Below are positions 16,799 to 30,139 of a stretch of 64,000 nt of DNA, one piece after another (positions within the stretch are counted from its first letter, which is position 1; each line of letters begins with the position of its first letter). This DNA comes from Tessaracoccus lacteus (lineage in GTDB: Bacteria > Actinomycetota > Actinomycetes > Propionibacteriales > Propionibacteriaceae). The notes beneath the pieces were generated by a model. The model did not search any database. It worked only from the letters and a program-made list of their open reading frames with translations, and had not been told where the DNA came from. The stretch covers positions 1,612,001 to 1,676,000 of the forward strand of contig NZ_CP123967.1 in assembly GCF_029917005.1 (NCBI RefSeq). Reading direction: 5' to 3'. The position numbers were made by a program, and so were the translations under genes.

Positions 16799-18196
16799 GG
16801 GACTGTACGTTTTCCGGTGTAACTCCGATGTAGGAGGTAGCCGATGAGGATGCAGGTTGAGCCGGTCGCTGAGGCGGTCGTGATGGAGGTCGAGGACCAG
16901 GTGACGGCGACGGGAACGCCCCCGCTGGTGGACAAGGATTTGGTGGCGCAGCTCGTGGGCGACGCGCAGCGGCTGGGGCTGTCCGTGGAGGGCGAGGGCG
17001 GGCTGCTGGCTCAGCTGACCAAGCTGGTCCTGGAGTCGGCCCTGGAGGGCGAGATGACCGCGCATCTGGGCTATGACAAGCACGAGCGGGTCGAGGGCAG
17101 CGACAACGCTCGTAACGGGACGCGGTCGAAGACGGTGCTGACGAAGGCCGGCCCGGTCGAGATCGCTGTGCCTCGGGATCGGGCCGGGTCGTTTGAGCCG
17201 GTCGTGGTGGCGAAGCGGCAACGGCGTTTGGGGGCGATCGAGGACGTGGTGTTGTCGCTGTCGGCTCGCGGGCTGACCCATGGCGACATCGCGGCGCATC
17301 TGGCCGATGTTTATGGCTCTGAGGTGTCGAAGACCACGATCTCGACGATCACCGACAAGGTCCTGGACTCGATGGGCGAGTGGCAGAACCGACCACTGGA
17401 CCCGGTGTATCCGGTGGTGTTCATCGACGCGATTCATGTGAAGGTCCGCGACGGGCAGGTCGCGAACCGGCCGATCTACGTCGCGTTGGCGGTCACTGTC
17501 GACGGGAACCGCGACATCCTCGGGCTGTGGGCCGGGGACGGCGGCGAGGGCGCGAAGTACTGGCAGCAGGTGTTGACCGAGATCAAGAACCGTGGCGTCG
17601 CCGACGTGTTGATGCTGGTGTGCGACGGCCTGAAGGGGTTGCCCGAGTCGGTGGGCAACGTGTGGCCGCAAACGATCGTGCAGACCTGCGTGGTGCACCT
17701 GATTCGCGGGTCGTTCCGTTACGCGGCAAGGCAGGACTGGGACAAGCTGGCCCGCGCGCTGCGGCCGATCTACACCGCCGACACCGTCGCCGCGGCCGAG
17801 GACCGGTTCCTGGAGTTCACCGAAGTATGGGGCGCTAAGTACCCGGCGATCGTGCGTTTGTGGGAGAACGCGTGGCCGGAGTTCGTGCCATTCCTGCAGT
17901 TCGACAAAGAGATCCGCCGGATCGTGTGCACCACCAACGCGATCGAGTCGGTCAACGCCAGGATCCGCAAGGCCGTCAAGGCCCGCGGGCACTTCCCCAA
18001 CGAGCAGGCCGCACTCAAGTGCGTCTACCTCGCTGTGATGGCGCTGGACCCCACAGGCAAGGGACGAGCACGTTGGACACAGCGCTGGAAGGGCGCCCTC
18101 AACGCGTTCGAGATCACCTTCGACGGACGGCTCTCCGCCGGCCGCCGATACTGAGAGTCAAACAACCATGAGATACACCGAAAACTTGACAGACCC
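16799..18196 (+). mobile_element. IS256-family insertion sequence, apparently intact
   Basis: It is 1398 bp long. The left end GGGACTGTACGTTTTCCGG and the inverted right end GGGTCTGTCAAGTTTTCGG are imperfect inverted repeats. It has GATCGAAC on both sides and contains one full transposase gene. It looks like a recent insertion because the duplication is perfect and the host gene can be rebuilt exactly. Confidence 0.9.
16844..18154 (+). CDS. IS256-family (Mutator-type) transposase
   Basis: The 436-residue transposase is full length for the family. The DDE catalytic core is visible as VFIDAIHVKVRDG (Asp), LVCDGLKGLPE (Asp) and CTTNAIESVNARIRKAVKARG (Glu). The N-terminus carries LVLESALEGEMTAHLGYDKHE, typical of the family. 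AGGAGG lies 7 nt before the ATG. The protein moves only this element; nothing suggests it is inactive. Confidence 0.95.
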   Translation: MRMQVEPVAEAVVMEVEDQVTATGTPPLVDKDLVAQLVGDAQRLGLSVEGEGGLLAQLTKLVLESALEGEMTAHLGYDKHERVEGSDNARNGTRSKTVLTKAGPVEIAVPRDRAGSFEPVVVAKRQRRLGAIEDVVLSLSARGLTHGDIAAHLADVYGSEVSKTTISTITDKVLDSMGEWQNRPLDPVYPVVFIDAIHVKVRDGQVANRPIYVALAVTVDGNRDILGLWAGDGGEGAKYWQQVLTEIKNRGVADVLMLVCDGLKGLPESVGNVWPQTIVQTCVVHLIRGSFRYAARQDWDKLARALRPIYTADTVAAAEDRFLEFTEVWGAKYPAIVRLWENAWPEFVPFLQFDKEIRRIVCTTNAIESVNARIRKAVKARGHFPNEQAALKCVYLAVMALDPTGKGRARWTQRWKGALNAFEITFDGRLSAGRRY

Positions 18197-18204
18197 GATC
18201 GAAC
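18197..18204. repeat. 8-bp target duplication of the IS256 element, right copy
   Basis: GATCGAAC matches 16791-16798 exactly. Confidence 0.85.
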
Positions 18205-18281
18205 AGCTCTGCAGCGAGATCGTCGAGGCGCAGGAAAGGGAGATCGCCCAGATGAAGGAGATCCTCAAGCGGTACCAGTGA
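18205..18281 (+). pseudogene. DUF305 gene, 3' fragment
   Basis: QLCSEIVEAQEREIAQMKE, ending ILKRYQ and TGA, is the C-terminal helix of a DUF305 protein. It follows directly on the IS256 duplication and continues the fragment at 16675-16798. Confidence 0.82.
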
Positions 18282-18334
18282 GTTGAAGCCGCCGCGGGGC
18301 ACTCGGACCGAACGACACGTCCCCCGCAATGACT

Positions 18335-18952
18335 TCACCGCAGTCGCGTAGTGACTTCGTCGAGGAGTTCCTGGGGGTCGAGCCACATGGAGGGGTAGTT
18401 GCCGTACCAGCGCTGGACGCCCTCGCCGTCGATGAGGACGAAGCCGTGTCCGGGCATCCCGGGGTGCATGCCCTTGTCGAGGACGTCGTAGGCCTTGGAC
18501 ACGGTGCCGTCGTCGAGGAGGTAGGGGGTGGTGACGCCGAACTGCTGCATGTCGGGCAGGATCTGCTCGGCGCTGTTCATGACGATTGGCAAAACCTGGA
18601 TGCCGGCCTCGGCGAAGCCGGGGTTCTTCTCGATCTCGGCCATCTGCATGGTGCAGGAGGCGCAGCCGGCGCCTTCGTTGAAGTAGATGAGCACCGGGCT
18701 GGGTCGTAGGTCGCTGAGGGTGACCGTGGCGCCGGCTGTGGTGGTGAGGGTGAAGTCGGGGGCGAGGCGCTGGGTGTCGCCTTGTTCTGGGATGGCGGTC
18801 CACAGCCCGTAGCCGACGACGACGACGATCAGGGTCACTACTCCGCCGATGATCCGGCTCCACGTGCGGCGCTTCGTGTCGCGGCGCGTCTCGGCCTCCT
18901 GGCGGGCTTTGAGTTGCTCGCGCCGTGAGGGTGCGGGGTTCGTGGTGGTCAT
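18335..18952 (-). CDS. Membrane-anchored TlpA/peroxiredoxin-like thiol protein
   Basis: The 205-residue protein has a basic, charged N-terminus (residues 1-33), one membrane anchor (about 34-53) and an extracytoplasmic AhpC/TSA-Redoxin domain (about 64-200: LAPDFTLTTTAG, then FNEGAGCASC). The CASC motif is the expected redox pair. It would reduce or oxidise thiols outside the membrane. It overlaps the CcdA-like gene by ATGA and is last in a three-gene operon with it and a glutaredoxin-like gene. The CcdA-like protein is the natural electron donor. The link to copper stress is inferred from the box at 20260 and the neighbours. Confidence 0.87.
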   Translation of the reverse strand: MTTTNPAPSRREQLKARQEAETRRDTKRRTWSRIIGGVVTLIVVVVGYGLWTAIPEQGDTQRLAPDFTLTTTAGATVTLSDLRPSPVLIYFNEGAGCASCTMQMAEIEKNPGFAEAGIQVLPIVMNSAEQILPDMQQFGVTTPYLLDDGTVSKAYDVLDKGMHPGMPGHGFVLIDGEGVQRWYGNYPSMWLDPQELLDEVTTRLR

Positions 18953-19914
18953 CGTGGCTCCTGGGAGAGTGTCGTCGGAGCGCTGGCTCCTTCGGGCGCG
19001 GGGGTCGGTGTTGGTTGGGTGTCGCAGCAGTCATGGACGGCGGCGGTGGGCTTGGCGTGTCGGCGGTCGCGAAGGGTGGCGATGACGAACACGGCCACCA
19101 GCGCGAGCAGTGCCAGTCCGAGGACGGCCTCGGGGATAGGGGCGGTGATCGCGATCAGCCACGCGAAGACCTCGGAGAGCCAGGCGCCCATGCCGACCAG
19201 CGGGGCGTCGGCGCCGGTCATCTCGGTGGCGCCGGCTTGGCCGATCACGAGGATGCCCATGATCACGAACCCGACGGCGACCAGCAGGTTGACGCTGTTG
19301 GTGGCCAGCGTGAAGCGGCCCAGGTTGATCCGGATGGGCTTGGCGCGGAGGCTGCGCATCCGCTCGGGTCGCTTGTCCCACAGCAGTGCCATCACGAACA
19401 ACGGGATCACCATCCCGAACACGTAGGTCAGACCGAGCACCAGCCCACCGACGGGCGAGCCGGACAGCGCCGACAGGGTCATCACGCCCGCCAGGACCGG
19501 CGCGCAGCAACTGGAGGCGATGCCGGAAAACACGCCGAGGCTGAAGAAGGTGGCAGTGTCCCCGCGTGCGGTGTCAGGCGCCCGGAGGAACGACGGCATC
19601 GACCACATCGCCCCCGACAACGTCAACAGGCCGAGTCCGATCATCAACAGGCCGCCGGCCCAGTAGAGAACCACGTGGTACTTGGCAATGGCGCCGGCGA
19701 TCAGGCTGACCCCCATGGTGATCGGGACCAGGACCGCTGCCAGGCCGGCGGCGAACACGAAGGTCAGCGGGATCAGGCGCCAACGGCGGTTCTTCGCCGC
19801 CGCGGCCAGATAGCTGGGGGCGAGGAAGACGATGCAGCACGGGGCGAACAGCGCGACGCCGCCGGCGAGGAACGCCGCCAGGATCCCTCCCGCGCTGAGC
19901 AAGTCGGCACCCAT
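18949..19914 (-). CDS. CcdA/DsbD-like membrane thiol transporter
   Basis: The 321-residue protein has eight or so helices. Two cysteine-bearing segments, LFAPCCIVFLAPSYL near the N-terminus and GIASSCCAPVLAG in the middle, are the paired cysteines that carry electrons across the membrane in CcdA/DsbD proteins. The hydrophilic C-terminal tail has a CC pair (HDCCDTQ) that could bind metal. It starts by a one-base overlap with the upstream glutaredoxin-like gene and ends with an ATGA overlap into the TlpA-like gene, so the three are translated together. The likely electron path is cytosolic thiol protein to CcdA-like to TlpA-like. Confidence 0.87.
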   Translation of the reverse strand: MGADLLSAGGILAAFLAGGVALFAPCCIVFLAPSYLAAAAKNRRWRLIPLTFVFAAGLAAVLVPITMGVSLIAGAIAKYHVVLYWAGGLLMIGLGLLTLSGAMWSMPSFLRAPDTARGDTATFFSLGVFSGIASSCCAPVLAGVMTLSALSGSPVGGLVLGLTYVFGMVIPLFVMALLWDKRPERMRSLRAKPIRINLGRFTLATNSVNLLVAVGFVIMGILVIGQAGATEMTGADAPLVGMGAWLSEVFAWLIAITAPIPEAVLGLALLALVAVFVIATLRDRRHAKPTAAVHDCCDTQPTPTPAPEGASAPTTLSQEPR

Positions 19915-20216
19915 CAGCGGGCACCGAGGCGGTCGACGAGCCGCGCCAGCTTGCCTCGCGGAATGCGGCCGGCGTGGAAGTACCTGCCCGCCACCAGGGT
20001 CAGCGGGAAACTCCCAGGGCGGTGCTCGGCGATCAGCGCCTCACCTTGCGGTGACTCCGCCGGCACTGCCGTCAGCCGCAACAATCCTGCACGTTCCAGA
20101 GCGTGGAGGCGTTGATGGGCGTCGTCGCAGAAGTGACAGGCGGGGGTGGTCACCAAGGTGACGTTGACCACCTCGGTCGGGGCGGTCGGCGGTGCTGATG
20201 CCGGAATCTCGTTCAC
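19914..20216 (-). CDS. Glutaredoxin-like thiol protein
   Basis: The 100-residue thioredoxin-fold protein has CHFC at about residues 27-30 (VTTPACHFCDDAH) and the SFPLTLVAG cis-Pro loop near residue 70. It is the first gene of the operon with the CcdA-like and TlpA-like genes. The start is GTG; a leaderless start is possible because the -10-like GAGGCT lies 6 nt upstream. A direct-repeat box lies 44 nt upstream on the same strand. Confidence 0.82.
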   Translation of the reverse strand: MNEIPASAPPTAPTEVVNVTLVTTPACHFCDDAHQRLHALERAGLLRLTAVPAESPQGEALIAEHRPGSFPLTLVAGRYFHAGRIPRGKLARLVDRLGAR

Positions 20217-20259
20217 GATCCCAGCCTCAACCCTCCAGATCAGGGAACGGTTCAGCCCG

Positions 20260-20278
20260 GGTCAAGATTCGGCCAAGA
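20260..20278 (-). promoter_or_regulatory. OmpR-type direct-repeat box A
   Basis: On the minus strand it reads TCTTGGCCGAATCTTGACC: two half-sites 11 bp apart. The -10-like GAGGCT follows after 31 nt, pointing at the glutaredoxin-like operon. It lies between that operon and the divergent response regulator gene, so it may also control the latter. Confidence 0.7.
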
Positions 20279-20338
20279 ACACTCCCCCAGCACCGTGAGG
20301 GGGTGGGGTGGCGGGCGGGGAGTGTCAATAATGGCTGT

Positions 20339-21046
20339 ATGGCTGAGCCCCGCAGGTCGAGTGTGTTGGTGATCGACGACGAGCGCCCGCTGGCAGGGAT
20401 CGTCGCCTCCTACCTCAACAAGGCAGGCTTCGACACCGCCCTGGCCTACACCGGCCCAGACGGCGTCTCCTCGGCGCAAGACCTGGACCCCGACGTCATC
20501 ATCCTTGACCTGGGCCTACCCGGCATCGACGGCATCGAGGTGTGCCGCCAGATCCGGCTGTTCTCCGACTGCTACATCCTGATGCTGACCGCCCGCGCCG
20601 ACGAGGTCGACAAACTGATCGGCTTGTCGGTGGGCGCCGACGACTACCTGACCAAGCCGTTCAGCCCCCGCGAGCTCATCGCCCGCGTCAACACCGTGCT
20701 GAGACGCCCGCGCCGCCAGACCCACGGCACACAACTGACCGCGCCGCGCGAGTTCGGGCGGCTGCGGGTGGACGCGGAAGGCCGCGACGTGTGGGTCGAC
20801 GACCAGCAGGTGGGGCTCACCCGCACCGAGTTCGACATCCTCGACGCACTCTCAGCCCGACCCAACGTGGCGCTGAGCAGGCGGCAGATTATCGACTCGG
20901 TGTGGGGCCCGGGCTGGGTCGGCGATGATCACGTCGTCGACGTGCATGTGGCAAATCTCCGCAAGAAGCTCGACGACCCGCCCGCGGAACCGTGCTACAT
21001 CCTCACCGTCCGCGGAGTCGGCTACCGGATGGGACCAGGAGCATGA
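20339..21046 (+). CDS. OmpR/PhoB-family response regulator
   Basis: The 235-residue protein has a receiver domain (residues 7-120) with acidic pocket D13/D14, phosphorylation site Asp57 in LDLGLPG, and KPFSPREL carrying the conserved Lys. A winged-helix DNA-binding domain covers about 140-232 (RTEFDILDALSARPNVALSR and VDVHVANLRKKL). It is translationally coupled to its kinase by ATGA. OmpR-type regulators bind head-to-tail repeats with an 11-bp period, which is exactly the box repeated seven times in this island. A copper-responsive CusR/CopR-like role is inferred from the surrounding genes. The start ATG begins the conserved part, with AATAAT 6 nt upstream. Confidence 0.92.
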   Translation: MAEPRRSSVLVIDDERPLAGIVASYLNKAGFDTALAYTGPDGVSSAQDLDPDVIILDLGLPGIDGIEVCRQIRLFSDCYILMLTARADEVDKLIGLSVGADDYLTKPFSPRELIARVNTVLRRPRRQTHGTQLTAPREFGRLRVDAEGRDVWVDDQQVGLTRTEFDILDALSARPNVALSRRQIIDSVWGPGWVGDDHVVDVHVANLRKKLDDPPAEPCYILTVRGVGYRMGPGA

Positions 21047-22182
21047 CCAGGCTGCGCGGTCTCGTGGGCCGGATGCGGTGGGGAACCCGCACCTTCCTCA
21101 CCCAGGCCCTGGTGGTGGCGGTCGGCGTGATCACCGCCGCCCTGGTCGCTGTGGTGGTCGGGCCCCCACTGTTCCACGAACACCTGCAACAACTCGGGCA
21201 CTCTGTCGGAACTGCCGAGATGGGGCATGTGGAGCAGGCGTTCCTCGACGCTGGCGTCAGATCGTTGGGCATCGGACTGGTGGTGGCGCTCACGCTGGCT
21301 ATCGGCCTGGCCTGGATCGAGACCAGGCGGCTGCGCCGCCCACTGGAACAACTGACCGCAGCCGCCGCCCAGCTCGAGGCAGGCGACTACACCGCCCGCG
21401 TCCCCCAGAGTGGAACAAGTCCCGAGTTCACGGCCGTCGCCGACGCGTTCAACGACATGGCCAGCCGCCTGGACTCCACCGAGACCAGCCGACGGCGGCT
21501 TCTCTCCGACGTGGCACACGAGCTCCGCACCCCCCTGGCCACCCTGACCGCTGAGCTGGAGGCCGTCATCGACGACGTGGTCCCCTGGGACCACGACAGC
21601 CAACAACTGCTCACCCTCCAGGCCGCCCGGCTCAAGAAGATCGCCGCCGACCTCGACGACGTGTCCCGCGCCGAGGAAGGCCGATTCACCCTCGACACCC
21701 AGACACAGCCGGTCTGGGACCTCATCGAACCCGCCGTCGCCTCCGTCACCACCCGATACGAGGCCAAGGGAGTCGTCTTGTCCGCGGACTCCGACCCGGG
21801 CCTCGTCGCAGCCGATCCGCAGCGGGTGGGTGAGATCCTGGGCAACCTCCTCGACAATGCGCTGCGGCACACCCCACCCAGCGGGATCGTGCACATCAGT
21901 GCACGCGAGTCCAGGGACGAGGTGGTGATCACGGTCACCGACACCGGCGATGGCCTCACCCCGGAGCAGCTCTCGAAGGTGTTCGAACGGTTCTACCGCG
22001 CCGACACGGCCAGGGCCCGCGACGCCGGCGGTTCCGGGATCGGGCTGACCATCGCCCGCAGCCTCGCCCTGGCTCACGGCGGCTCACTGACAGCCGCCAG
22101 CCCCGGCCCCGGACACGGCTCGATCTTCACCCTGCACCTGCCCACCGCGCCAGCACCTGAGCGGGTCTTGATCGATTCTTGA
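21043..22182 (+). CDS. Sensor histidine kinase
   Basis: The 379-residue kinase has two membrane helices (about residues 19-41 and 74-94) around a short extracytoplasmic sensor loop with several His (FHEHLQQLGHSVG), a HAMP domain (about 95-147), a HisKA domain with phosphorylated His159 in SDVAHELRTPLA, and an HATPase domain with the N box NLLDNALRHTP, G1 DTGDGL and G2 GGSGIGL. It overlaps the response regulator by 4 bp. The small His-bearing sensor loop fits a metal sensor, but the signal is inferred only from context. Its stop codon lies inside box B. Confidence 0.92.
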   Translation: MTRLRGLVGRMRWGTRTFLTQALVVAVGVITAALVAVVVGPPLFHEHLQQLGHSVGTAEMGHVEQAFLDAGVRSLGIGLVVALTLAIGLAWIETRRLRRPLEQLTAAAAQLEAGDYTARVPQSGTSPEFTAVADAFNDMASRLDSTETSRRRLLSDVAHELRTPLATLTAELEAVIDDVVPWDHDSQQLLTLQAARLKKIAADLDDVSRAEEGRFTLDTQTQPVWDLIEPAVASVTTRYEAKGVVLSADSDPGLVAADPQRVGEILGNLLDNALRHTPPSGIVHISARESRDEVVITVTDTGDGLTPEQLSKVFERFYRADTARARDAGGSGIGLTIARSLALAHGGSLTAASPGPGHGSIFTLHLPTAPAPERVLIDS

Positions 22183-22184
22183 CC
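22166..22184 (+). promoter_or_regulatory. OmpR-type direct-repeat box B
   Basis: TCTTGATCGATTCTTGACC, the cleanest copy, overlaps the kinase stop codon. Another half-site TCTTGA lies at 22199, 33 bp (three periods) from the first. TAGCCT follows the box after 32 nt as -10 for the DUF305 lipoprotein gene. Confidence 0.72.
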
Positions 22185-22270
22185 ATACACGGGTTGGCTC
22201 TTGAGCTGATCGTTCATAGCCTCGACGTTAGGGCCGGCGGCCCCCGTCGGCCAGGAATGGAGCATCTTTC

Positions 22271-22924
22271 ATGACACGCACTAAGCGGATCACTGCCACT
22301 TTGGCGGGGCTGGTCCTGACGGCCACCCTGGCGGCCTGCGCGGACCAGGGCGCCACTCCCCCGGCGGCGACCACCTCCCCGACAGGCAGCACCTCCGCCA
22401 CGGCCACTGAGTCCGAGTCGGCGTCGGCGAGCGCCTCATCTGAGGTGTCCGCCGACCACAACGACCAGGACACCACGTTCGCGCAGATGATGATCATCCA
22501 TCACGAGGGCGCCATCGAGATGTCTCAGCTGGCGATCGAACGCGCCGAATCCCCCGAGGTCGTGGCCCTCGCGGAGCGGATCGCCGAGGCCCAGGGCCCG
22601 GAGATCGAGGAGATGACCGCCTGGCTCAGCGCCTGGGGTGAAGATGTCTCCCCCGGTGGGCATGGCGGCATGGACATGGGCGGCATGGACATGAACGGAA
22701 TGAGCCAGGAGGAGATGATGACCCAACTCGACGGCATGTCCGGCGCCGACTTTGATCAGGCGTTCCTCGAGGCCATGATCGCCCACCACGAGGGTGCGAT
22801 CGGGATGTCCGAGCAGCAGTTGGCCGAGGGGCAGAACCCGGATGCTCTCATGTTGGCGGAGAAGATCATCGCCGACCAGCAGACTGAGATCACCGAGATG
22901 CAGGAGATGCTCACCAGCCTCTGA
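22271..22924 (+). CDS. DUF305 lipoprotein with duplicated HHEGAI motif
   Basis: The 217-residue exported lipoprotein has a signal peptide with lipobox LAAC, a Ser/Thr/Ala/Glu-rich linker (residues 25-60), and then a DUF305 domain with two HHEGAI motifs (residues about 77 and 175). A Met/Gly-rich GGMDMGGMDMNGM insert (about 133-146) sits between them. DUF305 belongs to the ferritin-like class; His and Met clusters outside the membrane suggest copper binding. It is preceded by box B and followed by a hairpin terminator, so it is a single-gene unit. Confidence 0.9.
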   Translation: MTRTKRITATLAGLVLTATLAACADQGATPPAATTSPTGSTSATATESESASASASSEVSADHNDQDTTFAQMMIIHHEGAIEMSQLAIERAESPEVVALAERIAEAQGPEIEEMTAWLSAWGEDVSPGGHGGMDMGGMDMNGMSQEEMMTQLDGMSGADFDQAFLEAMIAHHEGAIGMSEQQLAEGQNPDALMLAEKIIADQQTEITEMQEMLTSL

Positions 22925-22949
22925 CCAACCCAGGCGTGCAAGCGATGAG

Positions 22950-22982
22950 GCGCCCGTCCAGCCGTTGTGGCTGGGCGGGCGC
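22950..22982 (+). terminator. Hairpin terminator after the DUF305 lipoprotein gene
   Basis: A 14-pair stem (GCGCCCGTCCAGCC with GGCTGGGCGGGCGC, one G-T pair) has the loop GTTGT and ends in TTC. It lies 25 nt past the stop. Confidence 0.7.
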
Positions 22983-23026
22983 TTCGTCGGTTGCCCTGGT
23001 TGGCGCGAACGCCGTACCTGGCGGGG

Positions 23027-23317
23027 TTAGGCGGCTGGGTTGCTGGCGAGATGCTCGGCGTCGAAGAGGTCCTGGCAACGTCGGCAGCAGAAGTAGAACC
23101 GCTGGCCTTCGACGTCGCGGAACAGTCCCGCCGCCTCGGCGGTGGACTTCAGCGTGCTGGTCCCGCGGACCGTGCAGGTGACCAGCTCGTCGCCTGGGCC
23201 CGCCACCACGTCATGTTGACAGTGATGGCCCCCACCCTGACCGCCGCCGGCGTGACCGCCGCAGCAGCCTGCCTCCTGCTGGTTCCCGTGCTGGTGTCCA
23301 TGCTCGTGATTGCACAT
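23027..23317 (-). CDS. Small Cys/His-rich YHS-like metal-binding protein
   Basis: The 96-residue protein has an N-terminus dense in His and Cys (HEHGHQHGN, AGCCGGHAGG, GGGHHCQH). It is followed by a YHS-like part: TCTVRGT, EAAGLFRDVEGQRFYFCC and CRRCQDLFDAEH. YHS domains bind copper or other soft metals. It is the third gene of the Lgt-like operon, 35 nt after its neighbour, and likely a cytosolic metal buffer or chaperone. Confidence 0.8.
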   Translation of the reverse strand: MCNHEHGHQHGNQQEAGCCGGHAGGGQGGGHHCQHDVVAGPGDELVTCTVRGTSTLKSTAEAAGLFRDVEGQRFYFCCRRCQDLFDAEHLASNPAA

Positions 23318-23352
23318 GTGCTTGGTTTCCTTTCATTTCATTGTGGTGTTGA

Positions 23353-23784
23353 TCATGGGGTGGGCGAGGCGCTGTGGTGCCCCTCGTGGTCCTCGGTGCC
23401 GGACGCGCTGGCGGAGGCCGCCGATGACGGCGTGTCTGGTTGGTTGGGGGTGGCGGGGTTGAACAGTGGCCCGATCACGAACGCGGACAGGGCGAACAGG
23501 GCGGTGAACACCGCGACCCCGATCGCGGGGGCCTTCCGGGTGCCGAATCGGCGACGCAGCCGTCGCAGCAGCGGGATGCTCAGCAGCAACCCGACCACAT
23601 AGAGGAGCGAGTTGCCGAGGAACCCGGTCAGGAACGCGGCCCCGGCCAGGAAGCCGATGTGATGCATCACGTGCGGCGCCAGTCCCATCAGGGCGCCGAC
23701 GGTGGCCCTGGTCCCGGCCCACAGCGCACCCCAGAACCCGCGACCACCCCTCACGGCTGTGGCCGGCTCGGTGATCGTGTCCAT
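23353..23784 (-). CDS. Small membrane protein with His-rich tail
   Basis: The 143-residue protein starts MDTITEPATAV. Two or three membrane helices (about residues 25-70 and 84-104) include an APHVMHHIGFLAG segment whose HVMHH cluster is at the membrane face, and a hydrophilic tail ends in DHEGHHSASPTP. His pairs at both places suggest metal handling. ATG at 23784 is preferred over a GTG four codons upstream because GGGAGG lies 11 nt before it and would overlap the GTG. It follows the Lgt-like gene by 8 nt. The family is not recognised. Confidence 0.72.
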   Translation of the reverse strand: MDTITEPATAVRGGRGFWGALWAGTRATVGALMGLAPHVMHHIGFLAGAAFLTGFLGNSLLYVVGLLLSIPLLRRLRRRFGTRKAPAIGVAVFTALFALSAFVIGPLFNPATPNQPDTPSSAASASASGTEDHEGHHSASPTP

Positions 23785-23792
23785 GGCGCCGC

Positions 23793-24590
23793 TCACCTCC
23801 CGACCGGGTGAGAGCTAAGGACGGCCGATTCGGAGCCCACAGGAGCATCTGAGGGCGCAACTGCGGGGTGGAAGGCGTCTCGCAGGATCAGGGCGACGCC
23901 CAGAATGATACTGACGATGCCGATCAGCTGCGCCTCGGTGAGGCCCAACAGGACGTGCGGGTTGATCCGGACGACCTCGGCGAGCAGGCGTGCCGCGCCG
24001 CTGAGCAGCAGGTAGGACCCGAACACGGCCAGCGGTCGCAGCCTGCGACCCAGCGCCCACAGGATGCCGGCGATCAGGAAGGCGCCGGCGGCCTCATACA
24101 GCTGGACGGGATGCACCGGCACGTTCACCGGCACCACCCCGTTGGGGAACGCCATCCCCCAGGGCAGGTCGGTGGGTGTGCCGTACGTGCCGTCACCGGC
24201 GAGGAAGCAGCCGATCCGGCCGATGCCGTAGGCCACCGACAGCGGCGCCGCCATCGCGCCCGCCACCCGTCCAAGGGGCAGATCGTGGCGTCGAGTCATC
24301 ACGATCACCGCGATCGACCCGGCGATCAATCCCCCGTACCAGACGAACCCGGACCCGCCGAACAGGTGCCAACTGAAGTTGTCCCAGTTCGCGATCAGGT
24401 AGTACACCTTCGCGCCGACGAACCCCCACACCGTCGCCCACAACGCGATCGAGTGCGCCAGTTCCTTGTCGTAACCGATCCGCGTGAACGCGCGACCCAA
24501 CAGGAACGCGCCGACCAGCAGCGCCAGCGCCTTACTCAGCCCATAGCTCTGGATCCCCACACCAAAAATCGAGAACACCTCAGGCCACAC
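23793..24590 (-). CDS. Lgt-like membrane protein (prolipoprotein diacylglyceryl transferase family)
   Basis: The 265-residue protein has seven helices and the Lgt layout: GIQSYGLSKALA at the N-terminus, GGSGFVWYGGLIAGSI in helix 3-4, the family signature GRIGCFLAGDGTYG, and HPVQLYEA. In true Lgt the third block is FHGGLIG with an essential His, and the signature is GRIGNF with an essential Asn. Here they are Tyr and Cys. It may therefore not transfer diacylglycerol. The GTG start has GGGAG 6 nt upstream; an alternative TTG lies at 24659. It heads a three-gene operon with two His/Cys-rich small proteins and has a box for the response regulator, so a metal-related role is possible. Confidence 0.85.
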   Translation of the reverse strand: MWPEVFSIFGVGIQSYGLSKALALLVGAFLLGRAFTRIGYDKELAHSIALWATVWGFVGAKVYYLIANWDNFSWHLFGGSGFVWYGGLIAGSIAVIVMTRRHDLPLGRVAGAMAAPLSVAYGIGRIGCFLAGDGTYGTPTDLPWGMAFPNGVVPVNVPVHPVQLYEAAGAFLIAGILWALGRRLRPLAVFGSYLLLSGAARLLAEVVRINPHVLLGLTEAQLIGIVSIILGVALILRDAFHPAVAPSDAPVGSESAVLSSHPVGR

Positions 24591-24688
24591 AGCCCACTCC
24601 CATCGTCGAAACTGTTCCAGGCGCGCGACGTGACCGCGGGGCCTCACTGCCAGTCTCAACCGGTCACCTCAAGCAACGAGCAGGACCC

Positions 24689-24707
24689 GGACAAGGTTTG
24701 GTCAAGA
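24689..24707 (-). promoter_or_regulatory. OmpR-type direct-repeat box C, minus strand
   Basis: On the minus strand it reads TCTTGACCAAACCTTGTCC, half-sites 11 bp apart, followed after 31 nt by GAGACT as -10-like hexamer. It points to the Lgt-like operon. Confidence 0.62.
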
Positions 24708-24754
24708 TCCCCGTCCACGTGCCTGGACGAGGTAACGCCACACAGTAAGGCGGA

Positions 24755-24773
24755 TCTTGAGCGAAGCCTGACC
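24755..24773 (+). promoter_or_regulatory. OmpR-type direct-repeat box D, plus strand
   Basis: TCTTGAGCGAAGCCTGACC has half-sites 11 bp apart. TACCCT (24807) follows after 33 nt. The CsoR-type palindrome comes 6 nt after that hexamer. Confidence 0.65.
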
Positions 24774-24818
24774 ACCTGACCGTGACTTTTTGGATTGCAC
24801 CCTGCCTACCCTGATGAC

Positions 24819-24835
24819 ATACCCCTTTGGGGTGT
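24819..24835. promoter_or_regulatory. CsoR-type operator, copy 1
   Basis: ATACCCCTTTGGGGTGT is a G/C-tract palindrome with A/T ends as found for copper-sensing CsoR repressors. It starts 6 nt after the -10-like hexamer and so covers the transcription start. The csoR gene is at 29509. Confidence 0.7.
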
Positions 24836-25035
24836 GGTGGCGGCGTCGATACCACGGGTCCCCCGTGTCGGCTCGGAAGTTGAGGAAAGGGCTCTTCGGC
24901 GTAGGTCGAAGCTCCGTGGCGGGTGCGTGCCAAACTCGAGATTCAATGGCTGGTGGTCGAGATGGGTTCAAGCGGCAGCTCTTCAGATGGCGTCCGAGCG
25001 GATGTGGTGCTCGCGGGGCACCGCGATCTCCAGAA
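24836..25035. other. Stretch without a recognisable gene
   Basis: Downstream of the CsoR-type operator no frame shows a known family. Short similarity to the start of the HMA-like gene at 26283 (around 24960-24990) is too weak to define a coding region. It is probably the decayed 5' half of the pseudogene that follows. Confidence 0.5.
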
Positions 25036-25152
25036 TCTGGCGTCCACTGCGTCGACCTGGATCTGGAGCCGCCGATGGAGTCGCTGTTGCCCCCGGCCGG
25101 GGCCGTGACCAGCGAGTTCTTTCCCGCCCCGGTCAGGGCCACGACGGCCTGA
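25036..25152 (+). pseudogene. Remnant of an HMA-like gene (copy of 26283-26594)
   Basis: The frame reads SGVHCVDLDLEPPMESLLPP then AGAVTS, which parallels PGVHTVGMDLEPHGESLLT and AGALTS in the gene at 26283. The first half of the domain is not recognisable in the same frame and the end differs, so this is a decayed duplicate. The same kind of gene thus precedes both ATPase genes of the island. Confidence 0.55.
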
Positions 25153-25233
25153 GACCGGACGGACGGGCAGGCATCCGCCGAGCCCGTCGGCGCACGACCT
25201 GTCGGCCAAGCGGTCGGAGAGGAAGACCCGATC

Positions 25234-26196
25234 ATGAAGAGTCAAACCACGGTCCTGGAGGCCGGTGGCCTGCACTGGGCCACCTCGGAATCAGTGATCG
25301 AGAGAACGCTACTTGGGGTACCCGGCGTGCTGGCCGTCGAGGCCAGCGCCGTCTCCCAGACCGCGACGGTCACATATGACCCGAACCAGACGTCGGTCGC
25401 CCAACTGGTCGGCTGGGTCAATGACTGCGGCTACCACTGCACCGGCAGTCGGTACCTAGCCACACCACGGCGGAACCGGTCTCGACCGACCCCCACATCG
25501 GCCACGAGCGGCACACAGGCCACGGGGGCGGTGAGGATGAGGATGGCCGGGTCCGCGCAGGCGGTGATGGGCCACGGCGGGCACGGTGGGTCGATGGTGG
25601 ACATGGTGCGCGACATGCGCAACCGGCTCCTGGTCGCCGCGGTCCTGTCGGTGGTCATATTGTTCTGGTCGCCGATCGGGCGAGAGGTCCTGGGGTTCAC
25701 CGTGCCGGCACCCTTCGGGCTGCGCGACGACGTCTTCTCGCTGATCTTGTCCCTTCCGGTGGTGTTCTACTCGGCGTGGATCATCTTCTTCGACGGGGCC
25801 TTCCGGGCGCTCCGCGCGAGAACGCTGGACATGATGGTCCTGGTGGCGGTCGGGGTCGGGGCGGGCTGGTTGTACAGCGTGGTGGTCACGTTCACCGGCG
25901 GGGGTGAGGTCTTCTACGAAGCCGCCACGGTCCTGACCACCTTCGTCCTGCTCGGGCACTGGCTGGAGATGCGGGCTCGTGGCGGCGCGACCGACGCTGT
26001 GCGCACGCTGCTCGAACTCGCGCCCTCCCAGGCAGTCGTGCTCCGGGACGGTCAGCCCGTGCAGGTCCCAACCTCCGAAGTCGTCACCGGTGACCTGCTA
26101 CTGGTACCTGTCCGGGTCCTACTCGTTGTTCATGTGACCGGTGGTGTGGGTGCGGTGAAGATCCGCCCACCTGGCCGGGTCTTGTCGGGATCTTGA
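25234..26196 (+). pseudogene. Copper-type P1B ATPase, truncated after the start of the A domain
   Basis: The 320-residue frame begins with an HMA-like domain without CxxC (GGLHWATSESVIERTLLGVPG), then a His/Met-rich stretch (MGHGGHGGSMVDM), four membrane helices (about residues 130-235) and the start of the actuator domain (LLELAPSQAVVLRDGQPV). After VTGDLLLV it leaves the family and ends in about 30 unrelated residues. The TGE loop, the CPC metal site, DKTGT and the ATP-binding domain are all absent, so it cannot pump. The break falls about 70 nt before box E, which suggests a deletion joining this gene to the promoter of the next one. Confidence 0.85.
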
Positions 26197-26198
26197 CC
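26180..26198 (+). promoter_or_regulatory. OmpR-type direct-repeat box E
   Basis: TCTTGTCGGGATCTTGACC lies 85 nt before the HMA-like gene. CACCAT follows after 32 nt as a weak -10-like hexamer. Confidence 0.65.
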
Positions 26199-26282
26199 CC
26201 ACCCAGACCGGTTCCCGACACCGCGGGGGGCACCATCGAACATGAACACGCGAAACCGACCAGGAAGAGAGGGTGATTCGAC

Positions 26283-26594
26283 GTGACGACGATTCCACAG
26301 GCCACCTACGGGGTGCGCGGGCTCAGCTGTTGGCGCCGCATGATCAGCGCTGTGGACGCGGTCCGGGCCTTGCCCGGGGTGCATACCGTCGGGATGGATT
26401 TGGAGCCGCACGGCGAGTCGCTGTTGACGCTGGCACCGGCCGGCGCCTTGACCAGCGCCCAGGTCCGGGCCACCCTCGACCGCTCCGGATTCGAAGTGAC
26501 CCGACGCCGGCGCCGGCCCCGACCCAGCCTGCTCCGACATGCCCTCACCACAGCCCCCGTGGACGACGGCCGGGAAATCTTGACCGAAGCCTGA
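26283..26594 (+). CDS. Small HMA-like protein with a single cysteine
   Basis: The 103-residue protein's first 70 residues follow the beta-alpha-beta-beta-alpha-beta pattern of heavy-metal-associated domains (TYGVRGLSCWRRMISAVDAV, then PGVHTVGMDLE and LTSAQVRATLDRSGF). The metal motif CxxC is reduced to one Cys (SCWRR). The rest is a basic tail (RRRRRPRPSLLRH) and a short acidic end. The start is GTG with AGAGAGG upstream. It may be a copper chaperone variant or a degenerate one. Its 3' end overlaps box F, which serves the ATPase gene. Confidence 0.7.
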   Translation: MTTIPQATYGVRGLSCWRRMISAVDAVRALPGVHTVGMDLEPHGESLLTLAPAGALTSAQVRATLDRSGFEVTRRRRRPRPSLLRHALTTAPVDDGREILTEA

Positions 26595-26596
26595 CC
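26578..26596 (+). promoter_or_regulatory. OmpR-type direct-repeat box F
   Basis: TCTTGACCGAAGCCTGACC overlaps the stop codon of the HMA-like gene. TACACT (26627) follows after 30 nt, then after 6 nt the CsoR-type operator. Confidence 0.7.
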
Positions 26597-26638
26597 CCAT
26601 CGGGGTCGTCCGGGCCTGCGCGGGCCTACACTGGATAC

Positions 26639-26655
26639 ATACCCCCCCAGGGTAT
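26639..26655. promoter_or_regulatory. CsoR-type operator, copy 2
   Basis: ATACCCCCCCAGGGTAT has the same 17-bp length and the same 6-nt distance from the -10 as the copy at 24819. It lies between the promoter and the intact ATPase gene. Confidence 0.72.
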
Positions 26656-26687
26656 TGGGTGGGAGTCGAGTGGAAGTGGAGGTTGTG

Positions 26688-29480
26688 ATGCTCTGGCTGG
26701 TCATAGGTGGGGCGGTGGTCCTGACCGGGTTGCTGCTGTGGTTCTTCTTCGGCCCGAAACGGGCAGGGAAGGTCCGCATCGAAGATGGTGTTCAGGTGGT
26801 GGAGGTGACTGTCGACGGCGGCTACAACCCGGGGGTGATCGACGGGGTGCGTCCGGGGATGCCGGTGCGGATCATGTTCGACCGCCGAGAGGGTGGCGAG
26901 TGCACCTCGCGGGTGGTGATGCCGGACTTCAAGGTCAACGCGAGCCTTCCCGCGTACCGGACCACGGCCGTCGAGTTCACCCCGACTGAGGCCGGCGAGT
27001 TCCGCTTCGCATGCGGCATGAACATGGTCTCCGGTCTGATCCGCGTCACCGGCGACCCCCACACCGCACCCACCCCCACCACAGCATCGGATCATCACCG
27101 CGCGCAGGTGGCCGCCTCCCCGGCAGTGGCCGGTCTTGCGACCGACGGCGCCGATGATGAGGCAGAGCGGGCTGCGGAGATCCGGGACCTGACCCGGCGG
27201 GTGATCATCGGCGCTATCCTCACCGCCCCGGTGCTGATCGCGGTGATGGCCGTCGAGCTGTTCGGCGCCACCTGGGTGCCTGAGATCTTGATGAGTCCCT
27301 GGTTGCAGCTGGCGCTGATTGCGCCGGTGATGCTGTGGTCGGGCTGGCCGATCCACCGCGTGGGGTGGCGTGCACTGTCGCACCGCACCGCAGACATGAA
27401 CTCGCTGATCACGCTCGGCACCGTCGCGGCGTTCGGTTACAGCCTGGTGGTGACCTTCGCCCCCGGACTACTGCCTGAGGAGTTGCGGCAGGTGTACTTC
27501 GAAGCCGTCGGGGTGATCATCACGTTGATCCTGCTCGGCCGGCTCCTGGAAACCAAAGCCAAGGCCGGCACCGGTGAGGCGATCCGCAAACTGATCGGCC
27601 TGCAGCCCCGCACCGCCCGCGTCCTCCGCGAAGATGTGGAGCTGGAGATCCCGGTCGAGGACGTCGTGGTCGGGGATGTGATCGTGATCCGCCCCGGGGA
27701 GAAGATGCCCGTTGACGGTGAGGTGATTCACGGATCCTCCGCGGTCGACGAGTCGATGGTGACCGGGGAGTCGATCCCTGCGGCCAAGACGGTCGGTGAC
27801 ACCATCATCGGCGCAACCATCAACGCCACCGGGGCACTGCGCTATGTCGCCACCAAGGTCGGCTCCGATACCTTGCTCGCCCAGATCATCAAACTGGTCC
27901 GTGAGGCCCAGGGCTCGAAGGCCCCCATCCAACGGCTGGTGGACAAGGTCTCGAGCTACTTCGTCCCGGTCGTGATCATTATCGCGGTGTGGACGCTGGC
28001 GATCTGGCTGCTGGTGGGTCCCCCGCCGGTGTTCGTGTTTGCGTTCGTCGCCGCCGTCTCGGTCCTGATCATCGCCTGCCCCTGCGCCTTGGGGCTCGCG
28101 ACCCCGATGTCGATCACCGTGGGCACCGGCAAGGGAGCCGAACACGGAATCCTGATCCGCTCCGCTGAAGCGCTGGAAACCGCGCACAAGCTTGACGCGA
28201 TCATCCTCGACAAGACCGGCACCATCACCAAGGGTGTACCGACCCTCACCGACGTGGCCACCGTGGCAGCGTTCGATGAGAACCAGCTCCTCGGCTGGGT
28301 CGCCGCTATCGAGAACAGCTCCGAGCACCCCCTGGCGGCGGCGATCGTGACCGGCGCCACCGACCGCGGTCTCACCCTGGGCGAGGTCACTGACTTCGAC
28401 TCGGTCACCGGGCAAGGCGTCTGCGGCCACGTCGACGGCCACGACGTCCTGGTCGGCAACCGGCGACTTCTCGACGAAAATGGCATCAGTACCGACACGC
28501 TGCGGCCGCTGCATGACGCGCTCGCAGCAGGGGGCAAGACGCCGATGCTGGTGGCCGTCGACGGGCTCCCCGCGGGAATCGTGGCGGTCGCCGACACCAT
28601 CAAGGACGGCTCCCCGGCCGCGGTCGCGGCCCTCCAGGCACGCGGCATCGAGGTCATCATGATGACTGGCGACAACCGGGCAACCGCCGCCGCGATCGCC
28701 TCCCAGGTCGGGATCCGTCGCGTGGTCGCCGAAGTGATGCCCGCCCACAAGGCCGCCGAGGTCCGACGCCTCCAGGACGAAGGCAAGATCGTCGGAATGG
28801 TCGGCGACGGCATCAACGACGCCCCCGCCCTCGCGCAGGCAGACGTCGGCTCCGCGATCGGCACCGGCACCGACGTGGCCATCGAATCCTCCGACATCAC
28901 CCTGATCTCCGGCGCCCTGTCAGGGGTGGTCACCGCCGTTGACCTGTCGCGGGCCACTATGCGCAACATCAAACAGAACCTGGTGTTCGCGTTCCTGTAC
29001 AACACCCTCGGCATCCCCATCGCCGCAGGTTTGCTCTACCCCGTCTTCGGGATCCTGCTCAGCCCCATGGTCGCCGCCGCAGCCATGGCCCTGTCCTCAC
29101 TGTCGGTGGTCACCAACGCCAACCGGCTCCGCCGCTGGGCACCACACCCCATCCACGAGTCCCCCACCACCGGCTCCCCCGTCACCCCCGTCGTCGAAAT
29201 CGGCGGCGAGACCCCCACCACCCAGCACCACACCACAGGAAAGGACAGCCCCATGTTCGGCAAGAAGACCACCGCCACCACCCACATCGATCCCGTCTGC
29301 GGAATGAAGGTCAAGCCCGCCACCGCGGCCGCTACCCGCACCCGCAGCGAGACCACGATCTACTTCTGCTCCACCCACTGCGCCGAAGCCTTCGACGCGG
29401 ACCCCGCCCGCTACGGACACCCCCAGATCGCGGCCGAGCACCAACCCGAGGCTCACACCCCCGCACCGCACCACCACTAG
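26688..29480 (+). CDS. Copper-exporting P1B-type ATPase with N-terminal cupredoxin-like and C-terminal YHS domains
   Basis: The 930-residue protein should pump Cu(I) out of the cell using ATP. Order: one membrane helix (residues 2-21); a cupredoxin-like domain (about 34-120) with Cys72 and a CGMNM cluster (109-113) in place of the usual HMA domain; eight pump helices; TGES at 359-362; the CPC metal site at 464-466; phosphorylated Asp508 in DKTGT; SEHP in the ATP-binding domain; TGDN at 660-663; GDGIND at 706-711; and a C-terminal YHS domain (from about 868, DPVCGMKV and [11 protein letters not shown]) with a His-rich end. ATG at 26688 was chosen because GGAGG lies 5 nt before it. Box F and a CsoR-type operator precede it, and csoR follows, so activation by the two-component system and relief by copper are both expected. 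Confidence 0.93.
29253..29480 (+). other. Possible internal start giving a free YHS protein
   Basis: Within the ATPase frame, GGAAAGGA lies 7 nt before an in-frame ATG (residue 856). Translation from here would give a 75-residue protein, [20 protein letters not shown] onward, that looks like a complete stand-alone YHS copper-binding protein. The preceding linker (about 30 residues rich in Pro, Thr and His) is what one would expect of two fused genes. Not proven. Confidence 0.35.
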
Positions 29481-29508
29481 CCGCCGAACCAGACCAGGTC
29501 CAGGACAC

Positions 29509-29790
29509 ATGACCGGCAACCCACAGCGTCCGGAACTCATCGGCCAACTCGCCGTGATCGAAGGCCATATCCGCGGCATCGCCCGCATGGTCTATCAGGA
29601 CGCCAACTGCATCGAGATCCTCACGCAGACCTCAGCAGTCACCGGCTCGCTGCGCTCAGTCGCCCTGGACCTGGTCGACAACCACCTCCAGCACTGCCTC
29701 ACCCAGGCCATCCACTCCCCAGACCCCGCCTACCGCGACGCCAAGGTCGCCGAGGCCTCCACAGCCATCGCCCGCCTCGTCCGCAGCTGA
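29509..29790 (+). CDS. csoR: CsoR-family copper-sensing repressor
   Basis: The 93-residue all-helical DUF156 protein has the Cu(I) ligand set of CsoR: Cys34 in DANCIEIL, and His59 and Cys63 in NHLQHC. EGHIRGIARMV is the conserved DNA-contact helix of the family. Apo-CsoR binds G-tract palindromes and lets go on binding Cu(I). Two such palindromes are in this island. The gene follows the ATPase by 28 nt on the same strand and is probably cotranscribed, giving autoregulation. Confidence 0.92.
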   Translation: MTGNPQRPELIGQLAVIEGHIRGIARMVYQDANCIEILTQTSAVTGSLRSVALDLVDNHLQHCLTQAIHSPDPAYRDAKVAEASTAIARLVRS

Positions 29791-29795
29791 ACCGT

Positions 29796-29814
29796 TCTTG
29801 ATCAGAGGTTGACC
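29796..29814 (+). promoter_or_regulatory. OmpR-type direct-repeat box G
   Basis: TCTTGATCAGAGGTTGACC lies 5 nt past the csoR stop. CACAGT follows after 31 nt as -10-like hexamer for the small membrane protein gene. Confidence 0.65.
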
Positions 29815-29884
29815 GGCCGCGGATCGGATCTGAATCCGGACCCCGCACAGTGGAAGCAGCACCCGAACGAGAGGAACCCGGCTC

Positions 29885-30139
29885 ATGAGCCTCCACAGCC
29901 AACACCGCCCCACCGACACCGGCCCCGACACCCCACCCGCGGCCACCGGACCCGCCCAGCAGCACCAGGACCACGGTGGCCACATGTGGCACATGCTCCT
30001 GATGTGCCTACCGTTGATCGGGTTCGGCCTGTGGTCGCTGTTCAGCGGAGGCGGCGCAGGCGCGCTGATCGGCGGCCTCCTCTGCGCAGGCATGATGCTG
30101 CTCATGCACGGCCGCCCCGGCGCCGGGCACCGCCACTGA
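29885..30139 (+). CDS. Small His/Met-rich membrane protein (DUF2933-like)
   Basis: The 84-residue protein has a hydrophilic N-terminus (residues 1-28), then HQDHGGHMWHMLLMCLPLIG leading into two membrane helices and a His-containing end. The HGGHMWHMLLMC pattern is typical of short DUF2933-type proteins near copper or heavy-metal genes. GAGAGGA lies upstream of the ATG. Box G is 70 nt upstream. It probably binds or senses metal at the membrane; the function is not known. Confidence 0.75.
   Translation: MSLHSQHRPTDTGPDTPPAATGPAQQHQDHGGHMWHMLLMCLPLIGFGLWSLFSGGGAGALIGGLLCAGMMLLMHGRPGAGHRH

Follow-up and report, generated by a model that had tools for sequence, protein, structure and literature searches.

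Seven direct-repeat boxes in a Tessaracoccus lacteus copper island are predicted operators of its own CopRS-like two-component system

A copper island of Tessaracoccus lacteus carries seven direct-repeat boxes with a period of 11 base pairs (bp). Very probably they are the operators of the two-component system encoded in the island itself, which is likely to be an ortholog of CopRS of Corynebacterium glutamicum, and most island genes would be switched on through them. The island spans 18.3-30.2 kb of a stretch of 64,000 nucleotides (nt), hereafter the window (contig NZ_CP123967.1, positions 1,612,001 to 1,676,000), in a genome of 3.05 Mb on a single contig, and the boxes occupy 9.6 kb of it. 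An earlier note on this DNA had proposed that an OmpR-type regulator and its kinase activate nearly every unit of the island from these boxes. An OmpR/PhoB-type regulator acting on 11-bp repeats across the island remains the best reading, because the genome holds the strict form of the box nowhere but in this island, the box recurs beside orthologous regulators and covaries with their recognition helix, and the spacing from box to -10 hexamer is fixed; activation itself is what we infer from this arrangement. Beyond the earlier note, the analysis adds the likely CopRS orthology with an altered box, weak further half-sites, CsoR-like operators and an ATPase remnant. The boxes, their confinement to the island, the spacing, the extra half-sites, the covariation and the CsoR-like operators were all computed.

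The boxes and their occurrence in the genome

In all seven boxes the half-sites lie exactly 11 bp apart and read TTGA, CTGA or near variants with G at base 4 (Table 1). Six of the seven match TCTTGAYCGAATCTTGACC with at most three mismatches, while the mean expected by chance is 0.02 (100 shuffles) and no shuffle reaches six. None of the seven is a perfect match, and box 29796, with four mismatches, was missed by this search. The positions that the earlier note gave for all seven boxes and for the regulator and kinase genes (20339-22182) are correct, as is its description of a hexamer with A at position 2 and T at position 6, 30-33 nt past the box, which was read by eye at every one of the seven.

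Table 1 Boxes, promoter elements and genes of the copper island (window coordinates; mismatches of boxes are to TCTTGAYCGAATCTTGACC)
Feature	Position	Strand	Remarks
Box 1	20260..20278	-	faces thiol operon; -61 to -79 from regulator ATG; 1 mismatch
-10-like hexamer GAGGCT, box 1	20223..20228	-	eye reading and spacing rule
Box 2	22166..22184	+	overlaps kinase stop codon, upstream of DUF305 gene; 1 mismatch
-10 hexamer TAGCCT, box 2	22217..22222	+	spacing rule
Box 3	24689..24707	-	upstream of Lgt-like operon; 3 mismatches
-10-like hexamer GAGACT, box 3	24652..24657	-	eye reading
Box 4	24755..24773	+	upstream of truncated ATPase remnant; 3 mismatches
-10 hexamer TACCCT, box 4	24807..24812	+	
CsoR-like operator ATACCCC-TTT-GGGGTGT	24819..24835	+	directly past box 4 -10; 0 mismatches
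Box 5	26180..26198	+	upstream of HMA-like open reading frame; 3 mismatches
-10-like hexamer CACCAT, box 5	26231..26236	+	eye reading
Box 6	26578..26596	+	upstream of full-length copper ATPase; 2 mismatches
-10 hexamer TACACT, box 6	26627..26632	+	
CsoR-like operator ATACCCC-CCC-AGGGTAT	26639..26655	+	directly past box 6 -10; 1 mismatch
Box 7	29796..29814	+	upstream of small membrane protein; 4 mismatches; same site in loci L060 and L063
-10-like hexamer CACAGT, box 7	29846..29851	+	eye reading
Thiol operon	18335..20216	-	glutaredoxin-like (weak Pfam match below cut-off), CcdA-like (from sequence, no Pfam match) and AhpC/TSA-type thioredoxin-fold protein
OmpR/PhoB-type response regulator, CopR-like	20339..21046	+	Pfam Response_reg, Trans_reg_C; orthologs
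CopS-like sensor kinase	21043..22182	+	His-rich stretch between two hydrophobic N-terminal segments
DUF305/CopM-type lipoprotein	22271..22924	+	PF03713; CopM NF049983 above cut-off
Lgt-like operon	23027..24659	-	Lgt-like protein, small membrane protein, His/Cys-rich YHS/TRASH-like protein (matches below cut-off)
HMA-type P-ATPase remnant	25234..26196	+	phosphorylation domain/catalytic part missing
CopZ/HMA-like small open reading frame	26283..26594	+	no CxxC motif, no Pfam match; named by likeness to locus L091
Cupredoxin-copper P-type ATPase-YHS protein	26688..29480	+	longest open reading frame begins at 26655
CsoR-family metal-sensing repressor	29509..29790	+	PF02583; RicR-like, yet under RicR model cut-off
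Small His-rich protein	29885..30139	+	membrane-like by eye; no Pfam match

A genome scan for chance matches, run with patterns, bore out the view that the boxes mark this island. The strict pattern TCTTGNNCNNNNYYTGACC, which was fitted afterwards to four boxes and misses 24689, 26180 and 29796, has four matches in the genome, all four inside the island, and its reversed-pattern control has none. With at most one mismatch, the looser CTTGANCNNNNCYTGACC gives 28 matches, eight in the island and 20 outside, and three in the reversed-pattern control. The eight comprise six of the seven boxes, box 26180 shifted by one half-site, and an extra site, CTTGAACCCATCTCGACC at 24955(-), outside the seven-box list. 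Six of the 20 outside matches are copies of one repeated open reading frame (ORF) of 293 amino acids carrying the look-alike CATGACCCGTTCTTGACC (genome positions 64887, 312502, 375053, 1354133, 1498561 and 2062786), and the remaining ones were checked only for their position in coding-like ORFs. The closest outside look-alike, at 2.218 Mb, was considered as a further regulon member and set aside as probably a chance match, since it is located close to the 3' end of an ORF read by eye, with no family search, as restriction-type.

Recurrence of the box beside orthologous regulators

Searches of 116, 394 and 198 genomes and of one named collection (best 80 loci) led to the 198 loci used here, namely the window, L059-L134 and L179-L299. 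Left out were L001-L058 as short or duplicate, L135-L178 as having more distant regulators and L300 as not regulator-linked. The 191 regulator records reduce to 182 unique orthologs, a lower bound, since two more on short contigs, and a few from the list ends, are not part of the set. With base 4 left free and a score of 10.5, 96 box sites were found upstream of the regulator gene (0.7 in single-base shuffles) and 56 around the kinase end (0.0 in shuffles). Among 41 loci, near-identical islands included, a period of 11 is represented by 128 pairs, and no other period from 7 to 23 exceeds 50, a count reached at 22, which is twice 11. The upstream boxes mostly point away from the regulator gene (93, with five along it). 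Their distance to the start codon is 61-64 nt in 21 of the 93 and varied in the rest.

Covariation of the box with the recognition helix

A box at score 10.5 accompanies 116 of the 182 regulators, and its base 4 is variable: in half-site 1 it is G in 61, C in 54 and T in one, and in half-site 2 it is G in 33, C in 65, A in 13 and T in five. Ranked by mutual information (MI) per entropy with this base, the top columns of the regulator alignment are 197, 199, 189, 205, 209 and 198 of 177 for half-site 1, and 206, 42, 209, 205 and 199 of 176 for half-site 2, column 42 lying in the receiver domain. Here, positions 195-211 are taken to be the recognition helix and 222 the wing, by analogy with the family, and by the VDVH register window positions 199 and 206 align with PhoB Thr194 and Arg201. 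The ten helix columns exceed the others for both half-sites, with p 0.009 and 0.006 for MI per entropy and 0.036 and 0.041 for raw MI. In a test of nearest pairs differing in residue, with all testable columns as controls and weaker on independence than a tree test, columns 205 (28 to 2), 197 (21 to 0), 199 (21 to 0) and 222 (20 to 0) led the 98 for half-site 1, and columns 205 (21 to 3), 199 (12 to 0), 206 (12 to 0) and 222 (11 to 0) led the 76 for half-site 2. Kinship is not fully removed by this test, as receiver positions 87 and 120 (10 to 0 each) come among the next-ranked columns for half-site 2. In PhoB, Thr194 and Arg201 contact bases (PMC3973317).

In whole helices the relation is loose. 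At score 10, the 103 H-L helices have no box in 35 cases, CC in 32, GC in 16, CG in five, GG in four and others in 11, and the 58 H-V helices have no box in 12, GG in 29, GA in eight, GC in seven and CC in two. Six plasmid loci stood outside the making of this rule; three of them fit it (L302, L303 and L306), L301 and L305 have T or mixed letters, and L304 has no box. Genome G011 carries a TTGA-type copy (L064) together with a second copy (L085) having an H-L helix and a C-type box. The covariation of base 4 with the recognition helix and wing is strong computational evidence that the predicted regulator reads these boxes.

The boxes might instead be bound by another direct-repeat regulator, MtrA-, RegX3- or PhoP-like, with the island regulator controlling something else. 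Regulators of these kinds often bind 11-bp repeats, and the genome encodes more of this type (three matches at E 1e-50, one of which is listed besides the island's own, at 44% identity). Since base 4 follows the recognition helix of the co-encoded regulator and strict boxes do not occur elsewhere in the genome, this is very unlikely, and binding by the island's own regulator is preferred.

For the OmpR/PhoB family, a very large set of bacterial switches, it is difficult to trace how DNA specificity changes without breaking regulons, as large collections of regulators paired with their sites are seldom available. The present set offers 116 regulators with a detectable adjoining operator, in which a two-letter code can be seen and a small number of residues stand out as candidates for exchange.

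Promoter geometry and further half-sites

The distance from box to hexamer is nearly constant across the collected loci. After removal of duplicates (331 to 227 boxes), a hexamer with A at position 2 and T at position 6 lies 31 or 32 nt downstream in 164 of 227 distinct boxes, compared with one at 41-42 and 13 at 21-22; in a separate tally (315 reduced to 229), in which the two offsets were counted apart, the hexamer is found at them in 89 and 84 boxes. The hexamer is degenerate, as T at position 1 is rare among the 178 boxes with a hexamer (13%) and is present in just three of the seven window boxes (22166, 24755 and 26578). No -35 consensus appears among the 178 promoters with a hexamer. Thus, as far as sequence can tell, a direct-repeat site stands at a fixed distance before the -10 without a -35 element, the layout of promoters served by an OmpR/PhoB-type activator. 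The PhoB site lies about 10 bp before the -10.

Given that TTGACC resembles a -35 hexamer, the repeats could be promoter -35 elements, of the housekeeping or an extracytoplasmic function (ECF) sigma factor, and not regulator sites. Yet from the end of the second TTGACC to the -10-like hexamer there are 31 or 32 nt, too many for a spacer of 16-19 nt, many orthologous boxes read TTCA, and two copies exactly 11 bp apart are conserved. The promoter reading was rejected on spacing and is hardly credible, which leaves the repeats as predicted regulator sites.

Further half-sites appear between box and hexamer. The mean half-site score is -9.2 at each of +22 and +33, compared with -14.2 (standard deviation 1.2), and no rise is seen at -11, -22, -33 or +44; the highest score (-7.9) falls at +53, where the half-site runs into the end of the hexamer used to choose the rows. 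At least four of five core letters are present at +33 in 43% of GG, 24% of GC, 15% of CC and 11% of CG boxes, while other offsets have means of 4-5% and maxima of 12-22%. Four window boxes, 20260, 22166, 24689 and 29796, score positively for a half-site at +33, which in 22166 reads CTTGAGC. An extended array that ends 9-10 bp from the -10 is thus likely at part of the promoters, not at all of them.

An ORF could be called behind 173 of the 178 promoters, and 160 remained after removal of look-alikes. Sorted by motifs of our own, these genes comprise 22 SHOCT-type small proteins, 21 DUF305 proteins, 18 multicopper oxidases, nine glutaredoxin-like proteins, eight with a lipobox only, six YncE-like proteins, five P-ATPases, four Lgt-like proteins, 14 in small classes and 53 unclassified. 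On the other side of box 1, AATAAT ends 7 nt before the regulator ATG (20327-20339), and the transcript for the regulator may be leaderless.

CsoR-like operators at two promoters

Two of the window promoters, those of boxes 4 and 6, have a CsoR-like palindrome directly past the -10, typed by the CsoR operator consensus, and the other five have none (spacer 3, at most three mismatches). Across the 178 promoters, such a site with at most two mismatches lies within 76 nt after the -10 in nine, and in four and none of 178 in the upstream and +150 controls, respectively. By itself this enrichment is modest, and it is the downstream genes that carry the argument. Eight of the nine have as first called ORF one that resembles the window ATPase or an HMA protein, judged by the sequence start (the Pfam HMA match of the one in L091 is below cut-off); at window box 4, the remaining one, a 68-amino-acid frame ahead of the ATPase remnant is called first. 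The window and Tessaracoccus relatives sharing the gene account for five of the nine. In sequence terms, the island thus has the marks of a CsoR regulon, a CsoR-family gene and a CsoR-type palindrome at a promoter. Like CsoR/RicR repressor systems, it has the csoR-family gene within the island and GC-rich CsoR-type palindromes right after the -10; unlike them, the operator lies in a promoter that also bears an upstream CopR-type box.

The two palindromes, together with one box that is divergent at the regulator gene, would also suit a different division of labor, in which the boxes are true CopR sites of mainly repressing or autoregulatory function and CsoR does the copper switching. The geometry described above, with boxes at a fixed distance upstream of degenerate -10s lacking a visible -35, is that of an activator, the other five window promoters have no CsoR-like operator to switch them, and C. 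glutamicum CopR activates both divergent operons (PMC3140484). A mainly repressing role is accordingly improbable, and activation from the boxes is favored.

Relation to CopRS and other known systems

As described in PMC3140484, C. glutamicum CopRS (cg3285-cg3284) consists of an OmpR/PhoB regulator and a kinase with a His-rich loop, in which an HxH motif is followed by a third His 15 residues on (H39, H41 and H56 of CopS). A period-11 repeat there lies about 60-80 nt before the regulator ATG and points away from it, and a copper ATPase and other copper genes are its neighbors. The same features are found in the window. An OmpR/PhoB regulator adjoins a HAMP/HisKA kinase, whose short extracytoplasmic loop, with membrane segments judged by eye, has His residues at i, i+2 and i+17, a spacing equal to that of the CopS triad and conserved at the three positions in 56, 89 and 88 of 94 kinases. 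Box 1 spans -61 to -79, compared with -59 to -78 for the published site TGAAGATTTgaTGAAGATTT bound by CopR (PMC3140484). The reverse complement of TGAAGATTTgaTGAAGATTT contains TCTTCATCAAATCTTCA, the exact box found beside the Corynebacterium-type regulators L096 and L127.

The differences concern mainly the DNA code. Here the half-site is TTGA and there TTCA; seven boxes are present here, whereas the published text reports a single site; the recognition helix reads DDHVVDVHVANLRKKL in the window and DERIVDVHIGNLRRKL in Corynebacterium relatives; and CsoR-like operators lie inside two promoters here. The TCTTCA half-site of C. glutamicum CopR is not found in the window boxes and occurs with Corynebacterium-type helices. 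The window regulator is 56-57% identical to those of the Corynebacterium loci L127 and L128 and 58% to a copy on a C. faecale plasmid, where a like regulator pair stands beside CueP, multicopper oxidase, TlpA and CcdA genes and its own best box reads TTTG/TTTA. As a side observation, the relative L061 has a CopR-type box upstream of a CueP periplasmic copper protein (L061:1668-2279). Box design and position, His triad spacing and the C. faecale plasmid pair agree, and the system is therefore most likely a CopRS ortholog that would work like CopRS with one defining feature, the TTCA half-site, changed.

No named family claims the regulator: in an NCBIfam scan, the best 25 of 84 matched families were all under cut-off, including TIGR01387 (cztR_silR_copR; 160.8 bits, cut-off 279.2) and the MtrA model NF040689 (212.3, cut-off 300). 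PhoB with its pho box and PhoP share with it head-to-tail repeats of period 11 and a recognition helix that reads the major groove; for PhoP of Mycobacterium tuberculosis the repeats are 7-bp motifs with a 4-bp spacer (PMC4832192). They differ in half-site sequence and signal, and in that the two distal half-sites are the strongest here. Narrow literature searching, in which subscription journals were largely uncovered and which is no proof of absence, returned nothing under 'CopR box' or 'same promoter', and broader searching brought up the C. glutamicum work and other systems. A CopRS-like regulon with a shifted DNA code and many sites, and with a probable joint CsoR gate at two promoters, would probably be new.

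Proposed mechanism

As to binding, phosphorylation, copper as the signal and activation, we infer the following course. For extracytoplasmic copper the probable sensor is the short His-rich loop of the kinase, and the phosphorylated regulator would bind the strong pair of TTGA half-sites head to tail, 11 bp apart. At several promoters (four of the seven in the window, with a +33 half-site), further subunits probably extend the array toward the degenerate -10, 9-10 bp away, and the bound array would stand in for a -35 element in recruiting RNA polymerase. The thiol operon, the DUF305 protein, the Lgt-like operon, the HMA-like ORF, the copper ATPase and the small membrane protein would thus be switched on, and the regulator perhaps also switches on its own gene. 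At the two ATPase-type promoters, CsoR would add a second, cytoplasmic copper check from its operator just past the -10, which would make these promoters a natural design where an extracytoplasmic activator and a cytoplasmic repressor meet.

A wider reading joins these elements and is put forward tentatively, as somewhat more likely to fail than to hold. Positions 197, 199, 205, 206 and 222 would form a loose readable code, in which D/V/A/N helices go with TTGA and E/L/G/H helices and the Corynebacterium type with TTCA, the two half-sites could be set separately, and insulated copies could coexist in one genome, as in G011. Many TTGA-type operators would be graded arrays, with strong distal and weak proximal half-sites reaching to 9-10 bp before the -10, and the ATPase promoters with their CsoR operator would act as a two-compartment copper gate.

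Several observations weigh against the regulator-box assignment or its extensions. At score 10.5, 66 of the 182 orthologs have no box in the searched stretches, and in the window boxes 26180 and 29796 are weak. The helix-box code is loose, with many mixed boxes and a few outright exceptions. Nearest pairs are not strictly independent, and a strict, underpowered tree test gave the same direction with one to five supported pairs per trait, none significant among the results listed. The orthology with CopRS is based on Corynebacterium relatives and published text, not on the C. glutamicum CopR sequence. Extra half-sites are clear in GG and GC boxes, barely so in CC boxes and absent at +33 in CG boxes, and window boxes 24755, 26180 and 26578 have negative half-site scores at both +22 and +33; these three and the CG boxes count against the graded array in particular.

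Island genes and history

Some gene names of the island rest on weak matches or eye reading, as marked in Table 1. The earlier note had counted 'the ATPases' among the regulon units; the frame at 25234-26196 lacks the catalytic part and is a remnant, from which relatives diverge from 26107 onward. At 26107, L061 has about 2.5 kb extra, its own frame looking split, and L060 is without 25445-26148. The CopZ/HMA-like ORF (26283-26594) has CWRRM in place of the CASC of L091, and its metal site may be lost. The copper operon includes an Lgt-like lipoprotein-modification protein (23793-24659), and a gene so annotated is also near the regulator on a Rhodococcus qingshengii plasmid.

The part of the island from 18197 to 29697 (11.5 kb) is 99.5% identical to a congeneric genome (G020, locus L059), which suggests a recent transfer of the island; the shared part stops inside csoR. 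Directly before it, segment 16798-18197, with a Mutator-family transposase gene (16844-18154), is absent at this place from G020, G003 and G016. In these three genomes the flanking sides adjoin with an overlap of 8 bp, which marks the segment as a recent insertion.

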